Made by a program: the position numbers and the translations under genes. DNA of 64,000 bases from Actinomucor elegans (taxonomy: Eukaryota > Mucoromycota > Mucoromycetes > Mucorales > Mucoraceae): NCBI GenBank assembly GCA_026027325.1, contig JAMSLZ010000010.1:62001-126000 (forward strand), given 5' to 3'. Below are positions 8,499 through 23,307 of this stretch, one piece after another; positions within the stretch are counted from its first letter, which is position 1; each line of letters begins with the position of its first letter. Under the pieces are notes generated by a model. That model did not search any database. It saw only the letters and a list, made by a program, of their open reading frames with translations, and was not told where the DNA came from.

Positions 8499-8876
8499 AT
8501 TGTCGGGTACACACAGATTTGTGCGTAACCTTTTAATTAGTATAAATATCAAATAGAACGCTAAATGAATAAAGATTATAATTTATCTCTTAATTACACT
8601 TTTATATAAATTTACACTAAAATATACATCTCTACTCACGACACTTGAATAATAAAGAGCATCCTTTTATCTCATATATAATCTTTTGTACACATTTATT
8701 GGAATCGACTATAAAACATATATCTCGGTACACGACATGATTTTGTCGTGAACAGAGATGTGGAATTATATAAAAGTGTAATTAAGAAGTAAAATATAAT
8801 CTTTATTCATTTAGCGTTCTATTTGATATTTATACTAATTAAAAGGTTACGCACAAATCCGTGTGTACCTGACAAT
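8499..8876. mobile_element. Non-autonomous element with long terminal inverted repeats (MITE-like)
   Basis: The left arm starting ATTGTCGGGTACACACAG is repeated inverted at the right end (about 8741-8876) over roughly 115-140 bp with only a few mismatches. The block GCGTAACCTTTTAATTAGTA is identical in both arms. The centre of about 100 bp encodes nothing. No clear target-site duplication is visible, so the superfamily is unassigned. It starts 48 bp downstream of tRNA-Met. Confidence 0.85.
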
Positions 8877-19698: not shown

Positions 19699-20175
19699 TT
19701 TTCTTTTTGTGTGCCTGTGCAACTATGCGAACGTGGATATATATATGATTACTAGGATATATAGGCTGTTGTTTGATTATCATATATGAATTGTACATTG
19801 TAATACCAATTGCTTGTGAAAAGAGAGTGCAATTATCGACCGAAGAGGGGGCCATCATCTGTGGCACTCAGTAAAATGTACTGGATTCTTCTAGATCTAT
19901 TCCATTACATCATGAAAGTAATATAGAATCGGAGATGGACTCAATAGATATCTTGAATTTAGCTATAATTCCAAGTGCAAGCTACCATCTAGATTTTGCT
20001 TTTATTAATAAGATGGCTATAAAAAGGAAAATGTTTATATTAATAGAAGTCAATACGTGTTCAATTTTTTTTGTCCTTGGGCTGCCAACCCTGCTAACAA
20101 CAACAGTGGCATTTAAAGAACCGCAGTTTGAACAAGTGTTGTACTCTGATTGGTCGAGCGTCATATACAGTCCCT

Positions 20176-20182
20176 TATAAAA
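20176..20182 (+). promoter_or_regulatory. TATA box candidate for HAC1
   Basis: TATAAAA lies about 190 bp upstream of the ATG and is followed by a pyrimidine-rich stretch (20207-20275) typical of fungal transcription start regions. Transcripts starting there would include the leader pairing arm at 20283-20303. Confidence 0.45.
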
Positions 20183-20282
20183 TGAAAAGGTTTTACTACG
20201 CACATTTTTCTTCTCTTTTCTTTTCTCTTTAGTCGACTTTCTTAGTTTCTTTTTACATATCTTCTTTTTTTTAACGTACTAT

Positions 20283-20303
20283 ATTCCATTGGGTGGTATT
20301 TGG
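20283..20303 (+). promoter_or_regulatory. HAC1: HAC1 5'-leader arm complementary to the unconventional intron
   Basis: These 21 nt are the exact reverse complement of 21119-21139, with no mismatch or wobble needed. The arm ends 64 nt before the start codon. In budding yeast HAC1, a similar leader-intron duplex blocks translation of unspliced mRNA; the same role is inferred here. Confidence 0.85.
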
Positions 20304-20367
20304 TATCTTAAAAAAAAACAAAATCTTACTATATACAAGTCAATATAAATCAATTTGTTATAAAAAA

Positions 20368-21487
20368 ATGATCCACAACGGCAACCCTGGTGCTTTATCT
20401 ACTGGCAATGATCCTTTAACAGAGTTATTATCATTTCCTGTGAACTTCACCGTTGATCCTTTATTAGCAACGCCTTCTGCTACTGTTCCAGTGCCTGCTC
20501 TTCCTTTACCTTCAAAAAGACAGGCTTCGATTTCGTCTGCTTCTTCAGTGTCTTCTGAATATGATACTTCTTCTTCAGAGTCCATCGTGTCACCAAAGAA
20601 GTCTAGATTATCGCTGGATGATAAAGATCAAAAAACCAAAGAAAGGTAATTGGCACAATCAAGTATAATAGAATAGTATACTCACAATTCTTTTATAGAA
20701 TACTTCGTAACCGTGCTGCTGCTCAAGAATCTCGCGATAAAAAGCGTAGATATGTCTCTGACCTTGAAAATTCCAACAAACAGCTCACAGAAGAAAATGA
20801 AAGAGCCAATAAGCGTGTTAAGGCTTTGGAAGATCAAAATGCTATATTACAATCACAATTGGAGGCGTTTACTAGGCAACTAGCAAATTTGCAAGCACAA
20901 ATTAAATTCAACGCTGCTACTCCCATCTTATTTAATGACTTTTGCGATTCAGCACGGATCGCGAAGAAAGAACGTTTGCCATCACTTGAAAAGGATACTA
21001 CACCAATAACGTTAACTATGCGAGAACAAGGAAAAAGAAAACCCCTGTCCAAAGTCGTGTCAATCTGCTACAATCAAAAGAACTAAGTCTGTCGTCTCAA
21101 TGTCCAAAACCCAAAAATCCAAATACCACCCAATGGAATCCCAAAAAAAAGAGATATACAACATTGACACATCTTTTACACTATTCTCTATTACGCCACT
21201 TTATTTCTGTAGATTTATCCAGTTCAATTGCATCGTAAGCTTTTTTTTTCCCTGCAGCGGAGGTTGCTAAACAAGATGAGAGTTGCAAGCCTAGAGGAGA
21301 TTTATTAGTACCTGCCACCATTAGCAATAGTTCGAGTATTGCACAAGCCAAGTTACCTTCACCCATGTTATCACCTTCTTTTTCATCAGATGAAGATTCT
21401 GTGTATTCACCAAGCACAATAGTCAACCAAGATTTTCAATTGGATGACTTGTTCGACTGGGACGGTCAACAATCAGCTGTGTTCTAA
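20368..21487 (+). CDS. HAC1: HAC1/XBP1-type bZIP regulator of the unfolded protein response
   Basis: Transcription factor expected to act in the nucleus after ER stress. Exons are 20368-20645 and 20699-20952 (conventional 53-nt intron), then 21255-21487 after a predicted 302-nt Ire1-type intron, giving 254 aa. The basic region is LRNRAAAQESRDKKRR (N-x7-R), followed by a leucine zipper (LENSNKQLTEENERANKRVK) and a second coiled segment. The spliced C-terminus is Ser/Asp-rich and ends DFQLDDLFDWDGQQSAVF, an acidic activation-domain type. Without the intron removed, the frame instead runs 44 codons beyond the cleavage point to TAA at 21084-21086, giving about 221 aa. The start is the first in-frame ATG downstream of the leader. 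Recognition as HAC1 rests on the bZIP sequence plus both RNA structures. Confidence 0.87.
20944..20962 (+). promoter_or_regulatory. HAC1: 5' Ire1 cleavage hairpin of HAC1 mRNA
   Basis: GCGATT pairs with GATCGC (five Watson-Crick pairs and one U-G; an outer U-G can be added) around the 7-nt loop CAGCACG. Predicted cleavage is CAG^CACG after 20952. Loop positions 1 and 3 fit the CNG^ Ire1 consensus; the usual G at position 6 is C here. Confidence 0.75.
20953..21254 (+). other. HAC1: Predicted 302-nt unconventional (Ire1-type) intron
   Basis: The termini are CACGGA and CCCTG, not GT-AG. Removal joins G(20952) to CA(21255-21256), giving GCA, the same alanine codon as in the unspliced frame, and switches the frame to an acidic tail. 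The length is similar to the 252-nt yeast HAC1 intron rather than the 20-26-nt introns of filamentous ascomycetes and metazoan XBP1. Confidence 0.8.
21119..21139 (+). promoter_or_regulatory. HAC1: Intronic arm complementary to the HAC1 5' leader
   Basis: Perfect 21-nt complement of 20283-20303, located about 167 nt into the predicted Ire1 intron, so the duplex would be lost on splicing. Confidence 0.85.
21247..21263 (+). promoter_or_regulatory. HAC1: 3' Ire1 cleavage hairpin of HAC1 mRNA
   Basis: TTTCC pairs with GGAGG (three Watson-Crick pairs and two wobbles) around the 7-nt loop CTGCAGC. This is the same loop sequence as the 3' site of metazoan XBP1, cut as CTG^CAGC after 21254. Confidence 0.8.
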
Positions 21488-23307
21488 ACAATACTCGTAT
21501 TACTGCTGTTCACTAACACTTGGCCAGGTTTCGTTCACAACAATAATATCGTTATTTGTGCTTCACTTCATTTCTATACATATAATATCATGCATTTATT
21601 CTACCCCGTTTCTTTCCAAACGTCATATTATACTGCTTCTAAATAATACACCTTCATTTTCTTTTCTTACTACATATTCTTTCTCAATAAAAAATACTTT
21701 TAAAAAAATCAGACACATTTTTTTTTTGTGTTTGTTATATGATTGAGTAGGTAAAGACCAATTGCATCTTTACAAATGTTCTACATAAATTTGTCCTTGG
21801 CACTTTGTTGTGACTTTTATTCAGTACATGAGAATATATTGGGCTCTGTCTGATATTGCAGCATATTGCAAAGACAGCTGAATGACGGGCGAATGGAATA
21901 CTTAATGGAAAATAAAATGTATATTTATTAACATTCATTAATATATAGTACACACTCATCATACTCGAGTGGAATAGTAATTCCAGTGAATGCAGCTGCT
22001 CATCCTGAACATGGATTACTAATCAGAACCATGAAGCTGAAATTGGTTGAGAGGAGAGCTATTAAATGTAGAGTCCAAAATGGCCATAGGTTGCACCTTC
22101 GAGTCTTGTCATTTTAAATCCTTTTTTTTTAATCACGCAGGCAGCATTTTCCTGGCCAGATCAGTTAATAACGTAGGTTTCATGTAGTATTTGGGAGTTG
22201 TTGTTCGTATTTATTATTACATTGCATTGAATATATAACAACTGAGCTACAGCTGTATTTCTAAAAGACCCCAGAGAGAGACTTTAATCAATATTAAATA
22301 TGTCAATTGAAAAAAAAAAAAACTTGAAAATGTTTTTACCTTGTACAATATAAATCTAATTCTCCATAGGCTTTGTTAAGGGATATTCTATGTGTAGAGA
22401 ATCGTTTGATATGAAAAGAGCGATATAATTTCCGACCACATTTCACAGTTTACCTTTTTGTTTATAGGGGAGACTCTTCTGCTCCATTTTTTATTTTGGA
22501 GTCTCTTATACGATTTCTTTCCCCTTCTGAAGCGAACTCTGTGATTGACACTCTCACAAATATCAAACGTTCGAAAAGAAACATCCATTTATAACTTTTA
22601 TTAAAGGCTCAAATCGTTAATTCAAATGCACTATAACTTAAAATATAATTGATATTTTGGAGCATAAATTTTTAGACTTTGAGCTCTAGAGTTCTATCAC
22701 AACTCAGGGAATGGATGTGGTGGAATAATTAGTATACAAGATCTCGATTGAACTCGACTCAATTTCGAATCTGATTAGTAATTCTGTACTTAAAATAAGA
22801 TACTACATGGAATAGAGTTTTAATGTGGTTCGAATGCCTATATTGAATTAAGCAACATATATACATTGGTTGATTTATAACCTTCGCTGCATCAATGTAC
22901 CATTTATTTACTTCTCTTTATATAAAAGTCCCAATGTTCAGGGCCGAAAGCTATAACGAATATGTTTTTTGTAGTCAGTATAATGTCAAATATAGCGACA
23001 TATAGTTGTGAATTCATCATCATTTTCATAATAGATAGCATGAAACCAAGAGCTTCGTTTACAGTTACAATGCTCAGAGATTTCAAGTTTCTTATGTGCT
23101 GTATGCCGAGATCCTAACAGTCATGTATTACTGCATGTCTCTCGGTAAGGACCAGAAATATTTACATGTTTTAAACTATGTATAAAGAGATGTCAATCAG
23201 ACAAACGCTTGTATTATGTAATAATACAGTCACGATGCCCGCTTCCGACATTTTTTGTCAGATCTCCAGCCTTAATTGCTTTCGTATTGAATTCATAGTT
23301 ATCAGCG
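21488..23307. other. Intergenic region between HAC1 and the MYSM1-like gene
   Basis: No supported gene. The 3' flank of HAC1 is T-rich (to about 21730); the rest is AT-rich with short homopolymers. A 66-codon minus-strand frame at 22388-22588 has no recognisable domain. The upstream ORF of the next gene lies at the right end. Confidence 0.5.

Follow-up and report, generated by a model that had tools for sequence, protein, structure and literature searches.

The HAC1 gene of Actinomucor elegans contains two 21-nt sequences that are perfectly complementary to each other, one in the 5' leader and the other within the predicted Ire1 intron. The best reading is that they form a yeast-like leader-intron translation attenuator outside Saccharomycotina, and we consider this probable. 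Its observed parts are the complementarity itself, the anatomy of the intron, the conservation of the arms as judged by back-translation of relatives' proteins, and a Trl1-type RNA ligase domain in the assembly. Leader-intron attenuation has so far been described in baker's yeast and its relatives; the Mucorales pairing is probably a clamp of this type. A conserved Mucorales case would mean that a ready-made stress mRNA, kept silent by an RNA clamp, is ancient or evolved more than once. It would also offer a natural comparison for studying the silencing of translation by a leader-intron duplex and the release of the intron once it is cut.

HAC1 Gene and Its Layout

The window is the whole stretch of DNA analysed here, 64,000 nt in length, and all positions are those of the window. 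The features are as follows.

20176..20182, + strand: TATA-like box TATAAAA, read from the sequence
20283..20303, + strand: leader arm of the putative leader-intron duplex, positions -85 to -65 relative to the ATG, exact complement of 21119-21139
20368..20645, + strand: HAC1 coding exon 1 (translation, homologues)
20646..20698, + strand: ordinary GT-AG intron, 53 nt (translation)
20699..20952, + strand: HAC1 coding exon 2, bZIP (translation, bZIP domain match)
20940..20966, + strand: 5' Ire1-type hairpin, 10-bp stem, loop CAG/CACG at 20950-20956 (hairpin scan)
20953..21254, + strand: predicted Ire1 intron, 302 nt (two hairpins, frame switch, DSAAEV junction in P0001 and P0037)
21084..21086, + strand: TAA that ends the 221-aa unspliced reading frame, 32 nt upstream of the intron arm
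21119..21139, + strand: intron arm, covering nt 167-187 of the predicted intron, with the conserved core CCACCCAATGGAA at 21126-21138 (complementarity, conservation)
21247..21263, + strand: 3' Ire1-type hairpin, 5-bp stem, loop CTG/CAGC at 21252-21258 (hairpin scan)
21255..21487, + strand: HAC1 coding exon 3, spliced form (254 aa in total; translation)

The translated gene contains a bZIP domain (PF07716, E 4.3e-10; PF00170, E 1.6e-8; domain profiles). A search of 5.8 billion proteins yielded 58 matches, and the named ones among them are all from Mucorales save Endogone, Mortierella, Paraphysoderma and one fly. Judged by its sequence, the gene is HAC1 of a Mucorales fungus, and its membership in the family of HAC1-type Ire1 substrates is strongly indicated. 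The homologues, the bZIP domain and the Ire1-type intron anatomy agree with an earlier note, made from the letters alone, which had called the gene HAC1.

The coding sequence begins with the ATG at 20368, and no ATG is present in the leader at 20190-20367. The TATA-like box at 20176-20182 makes a predicted transcript start upstream of the leader arm plausible. Rfam models were compared with 19800-22000 and none matched, even with E values as high as 1 allowed. Other bZIP matches in the assembly (L003-L006) were considered as paralogues and set aside as weak, with 30-33% identity and E values of 1.5e-9 to 4e-4. A strand-independent scan of these four for inverted repeats found nothing longer than 13 bp, except poly-T-based matches in L003; the hairpin scan covered their + strand only, and just one of the four genes is encoded there, the other three being on the - strand.

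Complementarity of 21 bp

The leader arm at 20283-20303 reads ATTCCATTGGGTGGTATTTGG, to which the 21 nt at 21119-21139 are perfectly reverse-complementary. This exact pairing and the 64 nt (20304-20367) separating the leader arm from the ATG are as the earlier note had given them. The distance between the arms is 815 nt. The duplex ends abruptly, and the flanking positions 20282/21140 and 20304/21118 are unpaired. In the 36.5-Mb assembly, the 21-mer is seen at the two arm sites and at one site with 3 mismatches; there is no further site within 2 mismatches.

The region 20181-21490 was simulated in 400 first-order Markov copies, and the longest perfect inverted repeat per copy ranges from 8 to 14 bp. 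A scan of the window itself for perfect inverted repeats of 14 bp or more around loops of 60-1500 nt shows only two that are longer than the HAC1 pair, of 65 and 22 bp, and they lie within a repetitive foldback element at 8499-8876. A sample of 200 kb from the assembly (20 stretches of 10 kb) contains 7 perfect inverted repeats that are 18 bp or longer and have a dinucleotide entropy of 3 or more, the entropy of the HAC1 arm being 2.95; the five of these that were listed all come from two repeated units. Length alone is therefore not unique in this genome, and what counts is that a match this long lies in a single-copy gene and is conserved.

The foldback element at 8499-8876 has 118-nt arms that are 93% complementary, and at least 152 related matches are found in the assembly, with both orientations and separate pieces counted. 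It looks like a MITE-type repeat.

Predicted Ire1 Intron

A scan of 20201-21500 for CNGC-type 7-nt loops on stems of at least 4 bp returns two matches only, which are the two Ire1-type hairpins. The 5' loop CAGCACG deviates at position 6 from the loop consensus CNGCNGN. Cuts after the third loop base in both hairpins would take out 302 nt and join GATTCAG to CAGCGGAG. The spliced junction then reads DSAAEV, and the protein has 254 aa with the C-terminal end DDLFDWDGQQSAVF; removal of the intron shifts the frame and exchanges the C-terminus of the 221-aa unspliced form. The 3' hairpin has a low probability in global folds.

The DSAAEV junction is also seen in relatives' protein records P0001 (Mucor lusitanicus) and P0037 (Hesseltinella vesiculosa); P0002, P0003 and P0005 are relatives' gene models with different junctions. 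In the sequence of the window, no GT-AG or GC-AG placement can yield the DSAAEV product, and for this reason the P0001 and P0037 models probably had transcript support. The stretch 20699-21254 has 20 GTs, and not one of them agrees with the donor pattern GT[AG][AT]G[TA]. The closest is GTAAGC at 21235, just 20 nt upstream of the cut site. The two hairpins, the frame switch and the shared junction support the Ire1-type intron that had been proposed from the sequence, and the pairing serves, as was also proposed, as independent support for the intron call.

Conservation of the Arms in Relatives

The arms were read in relatives through open reading frames. The proteins were back-translated, and any codon choice giving the core was counted as a fit, which means compatibility and not a sequence that was read. 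Many of these frames run from a retained intron into exon 3, and two run from a long leader into exon 1. The 13-nt intron core fits 12 of 107 proteins with at most one mismatch, always in an intron-derived stretch. The leader core fits 2 of 107, in leaders only (P0054 exactly, P0053 with one mismatch). The inner 11-mer fits exactly in 10 of the 12 intron matches and in the 2 leader matches. Records fitting the intron core include P0026 (Apophysomyces ossiformis) and P0073 (M. lusitanicus CBS 277.49). The 12 fitting records are not independent, as four are Rhizopus-like and P0090 and P0093 are a pair. Exon 3 of P0079 is identical to that of Rhizopus arrhizus P0023, and P0075, P0077 and P0078 differ by one residue.

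When permuted motifs are compared with whole proteins, they fit a median of 4, a 95% value of 25 and a maximum of 51 of the 107 proteins, against 12 observed. Under this null 12 is inseparable from chance, but the null is weak, since a single hit in a conserved exon is scored again in each of many homologues, and a test restricted to intron-derived segments was used in its place. There are 36 such segments with 1073 residues in all, and the intron core CCACCCAATGGAA fits 12 of them when one mismatch is allowed and 7 when none is. On the same segments, 1000 permuted motifs give a mean of 0.2 and a maximum of 5, with at most one exact fit, and shuffling of the peptides over 200 rounds gives at most 2 fits. 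As for the leader core, none of 200 permuted motifs fits both leaders and 7 fit at least one.

All 13-mers of the intron were compared with the 36 segments in the same manner. Those starting at 21125 and 21126 fit 12. Only the one at 21236 is higher, with 14 segments, and part of it is the poly-T tract adjoining the 3' hairpin. Among the leader 13-mers (from 20205), both leader readings are fitted only by those in the CT-rich 20206-20230 and those covering 20282-20298. With every 13-mer scanned, the arms stand out without being assumed, low-complexity tracts apart. This supports the view that the arms are the best conserved parts of the intron and the leader in relatives, again apart from such tracts and as far as back-translation can read them, and it partly supports the leader-intron logic suggested in the earlier note.

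In segments of at least 30 residues, the core is found with at most one mismatch in 10 of 18 and is missing in 8 (P0059, P0062, P0063, P0065, P0074, P0076, P0085 and P0094). P0062 and P0063 begin at the ATG inside the arm and are therefore unable to show the core; their start was placed by eye against P0073 and the frame 21016-21270 of the window. P0074 lacks the core, yet its exon 3 is Rhizopus-like. P0085, P0091 (25 residues) and P0094 (Halteromyces, Cunninghamellaceae) suggest that the core may be absent or elsewhere in Cunninghamellaceae. The ATGGAA of the arm predicts E after the start, and weakly in line with this, 10 of the 24 frames listed with an M start inside the intron have E next. 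P0069 and P0094 probably start outside the arm. The intron-derived N-terminus of P0069 reads MEAFFFPAAEV, and either its start is unrelated to the arm, or the intron is shortened and the arm lies beside the 3' hairpin.

The leader core is spaced 71 nt from the ATG in the window, against 79 nt in P0054 and just 5 nt in P0053. An A-to-G change seen in P0078 and P0079 would be tolerable as a G-U pair; in any one relative, a single arm at most was readable. HAC1 queries against viral and genome contig databases gave no match. Two viral contigs matching an 18-mer of the leader arm are taken for chance matches.

Elsewhere in the leader, the sequence TTCTCTTTAGTCGAC at 20223-20237 is readable as FSLVD, which is also seen in the P0054 leader. 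Its 13-mers fit one of the two leaders. It is possibly a transcript-start or other leader element.

Folding Energetics

The arm duplex alone has a computed energy of -35.3 kcal/mol. Local opening costs 9.1 kcal/mol for the leader arm and 2.8 kcal/mol for the intron arm, and the net value is about -23 kcal/mol (folding window 240). In transcripts with a 3' end at 21145-21200, the mean probability of the duplex is 0.98-0.99. Once the 3' end lies at 21260 or beyond, the probability is at most 0.04 and different long-range pairings prevail. The nested global fold of the full-length RNA does not include the duplex (-287.3 kcal/mol, against -267.7 kcal/mol when it is forced, or 19.6 worse). Nested global folds of 1.4 kb are unreliable, but the omission of the duplex does count against an attenuator.

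The leader-intron energy is -45.2, compared with -32.0 +/- 4.2 in shuffles (minimum -49.2), and at least 8 of 1274 tiles of the window outscore it through simple tracts. The energy is just moderately unusual, and thermodynamic ranking by itself fails to single out the duplex. The leader arm is a near-palindrome and can fold on itself at 20276-20306 with -6.8 kcal/mol. Owing to this self-folding, the RNA might switch between two states, one with the leader paired to the intron and one with the leader folded on itself.

Proposed Mechanism and Alternative Explanations

In the proposed attenuator, the leader arm of the unspliced mRNA would pair with the intron arm, looping around the start codon, and ribosome loading or scanning would fail on this closed loop. 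Under ER stress, Ire1 would cleave both hairpins and a Trl1-type ligase would join the exons. The intron arm would depart with the excised intron and the leader would be released, while splicing would shift the reading frame, so that the protein with the acidic C-terminus is made. We infer from the parts described above that the arms pair in the cell, that translation is thereby blocked, and that splicing lifts the block.

The strongest competing idea is that the pairing is real and acts chiefly as a splicing aid, presenting the hairpins or delivering the mRNA to Ire1 with little effect on ribosomes. The partner does sit within the intron itself, and the structure that stalls translation in yeast also helps to bring the mRNA to Ire1 (PMC6116095). 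One arm, however, is placed in the leader 5' of the ATG, which is a costly place for such a role, and the equivalent yeast layout blocks ribosome loading (PMC5114014); we regard this explanation as unlikely. The complementarity could instead be a by-product of two separate sequence-specific sites, either CCAAT-type DNA sites in opposite orientation or protein-binding RNA motifs. CCAAT is a known factor site; it is contained in the core, which is nearly fixed in relatives (the exact 11-mer being possible in 10 of 12) with few visible compensations. Yet CCAAT would leave unexplained the 21 matched bases, the conserved flanks CCAC and GGAA, and the fixed places in leader and intron, and two separate sites are very unlikely.

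It is highly improbable that the second intron is an ordinary spliceosomal one, removed in the nucleus, in which case the duplex could affect nuclear splicing only. Its 3' end, TTTTTTTTTCCCTGCAG, is a typical acceptor, but the 0 of 20 GTs fitting the donor pattern, the presence of two Ire1-type hairpins and the DSAAEV junction of P0001 and P0037, for which the window offers no GT-AG or GC-AG placement, all speak against it. Least credible, and hardly to be expected, is chance or a recent functionless inverted duplication. Perfect inverted repeats of at least 18 bp do occur elsewhere in the genome, 7 in 200 kb and others in foldback elements, but the 21-mer is not a dispersed repeat and both arms are conserved in relatives, which strongly disfavours this origin.

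Comparison with Known HAC1 Systems

In Saccharomyces cerevisiae HAC1, the block is relieved on mutating either arm and regained on restoring the pairing, and the pairing can be rewritten provided that complementarity is maintained (PMC5114014). The same paper describes that the unspliced-form protein is also kept low by degradation and suggests that marginal stability of the duplex is possibly required. The yeast duplex has 15 bp in about 19 nt at -38 to -20, with -25.15 kcal/mol (PMC8881652). It lies about 30 nt from the cap, 24 extra nt ahead of it relieve the block, and its leader arm has C at -23, -27, -29, -30, -32 and -33 (PMC8881652).

As in S. cerevisiae, A. elegans has one arm in the leader and the other within an Ire1 intron of considerable length, the yeast intron having 252 nt and the predicted one here 302 nt (PMC6627864, PMC5114014, PMC8881652); the unspliced frame stops in the intron, and splicing adds a new C-terminus. 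The anatomy also runs parallel in having an ATG-free leader with an arm, a partner in mid-intron and an unspliced stop 32 nt before the partner. By analogy, the A. elegans pairing likely works like the yeast attenuator. The two differ in the duplex, with 21 perfect bp against 15 bp and -35.3 kcal/mol (from a different program) against -25.15 kcal/mol. In A. elegans the arm is further from the ATG (-85 to -65 against -38 to -20) and G-rich rather than C-rich, and the core is nearly fixed in Mucorales whereas the yeast pairing is rewritable. This last difference suggests that the Mucorales strands may have a second, sequence-specific job.

HAC1 of Kluyveromyces lactis and Hansenula polymorpha resembles that of A. 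elegans in its long introns (297 and 177 nt) and proposed leader pairing (PMC6116095, PMC10608004); unlike A. elegans, both are budding yeasts, and their pairing was proposed from sequence. The hacA/hac-1 genes of filamentous ascomycetes share an Ire1-spliced bZIP mRNA and control through the leader, but their introns of 20-23 nt are too short for such pairing, and they are controlled through where transcription starts, through an inverted repeat in the leader or through an upstream ORF (PMC6627864, PMC4488935). Candida parapsilosis HAC1 likewise has a very long Ire1 intron of 626 nt, and no report of leader-intron pairing was found in the consulted part of PMC6222058.

Regarding the origin, we lean to convergence over ancestry. 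This is based on the introns of about 20 nt reported for filamentous ascomycetes (PMC4488935) and on the yeast leader arm, which has C at the positions named above (PMC8881652), against the G-rich arm here. The C-rich and G-rich leader arms give no support to common descent with the yeast attenuator. It can be speculated, although we think it rather doubtful, that the attenuator is Mucorales-wide with a nearly fixed core of 11-13 bp, being either independent of that of yeast or older than the split of Mucoromycota and Dikarya and lost elsewhere. In the literature searched, no paper on leader-intron pairing in Mucorales was found; the survey of HAC1/XBP1 introns in PMC3225973, which may hold Mucorales introns, lies outside that literature. 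A search of PMC4891664 for six terms on early fungi found none of them.

Splicing Machinery in the Assembly

The Trl1-type RNA ligase domain PF09511 is found in the assembly with E 1.1e-31, and two more pieces lie beside it. Ire1 was not found in the assembly by family and KEN-domain queries, in searches that ignore introns and had no working positive control for the nuclease domain. A kinase query gave 69 kinase matches, of which one was examined; this match on contig C27, with 47% identity, looks like a PAK-type kinase and was rejected as Ire1. Two further regions fetched alongside it were searched by tblastn for the KEN domain only. Sites with a degenerate KEN pattern were also considered. 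One falls in a tyrosyl-tRNA-synthetase-like locus and another, on C23, is without a long frame, and both were rejected as Ire1; one more such site is on C22.

Unspliced-Form Tails of Relatives

Of 45 unspliced-type proteins of relatives, 17 have C at one of their three final positions, often as MCI, VCV or SVC. These proteins are related and not independent, and P0005 among them is actually joined to exon 3. The tails considered include those of P0007, P0009, P0010, P0012, P0013, P0016 and others. The frequency of C is 1.1% overall and 5.0% in the tails. The C-containing tails could be a C-terminal degradation signal analogous to that of yeast Hac1u, or could reflect a constraint on the RNA.
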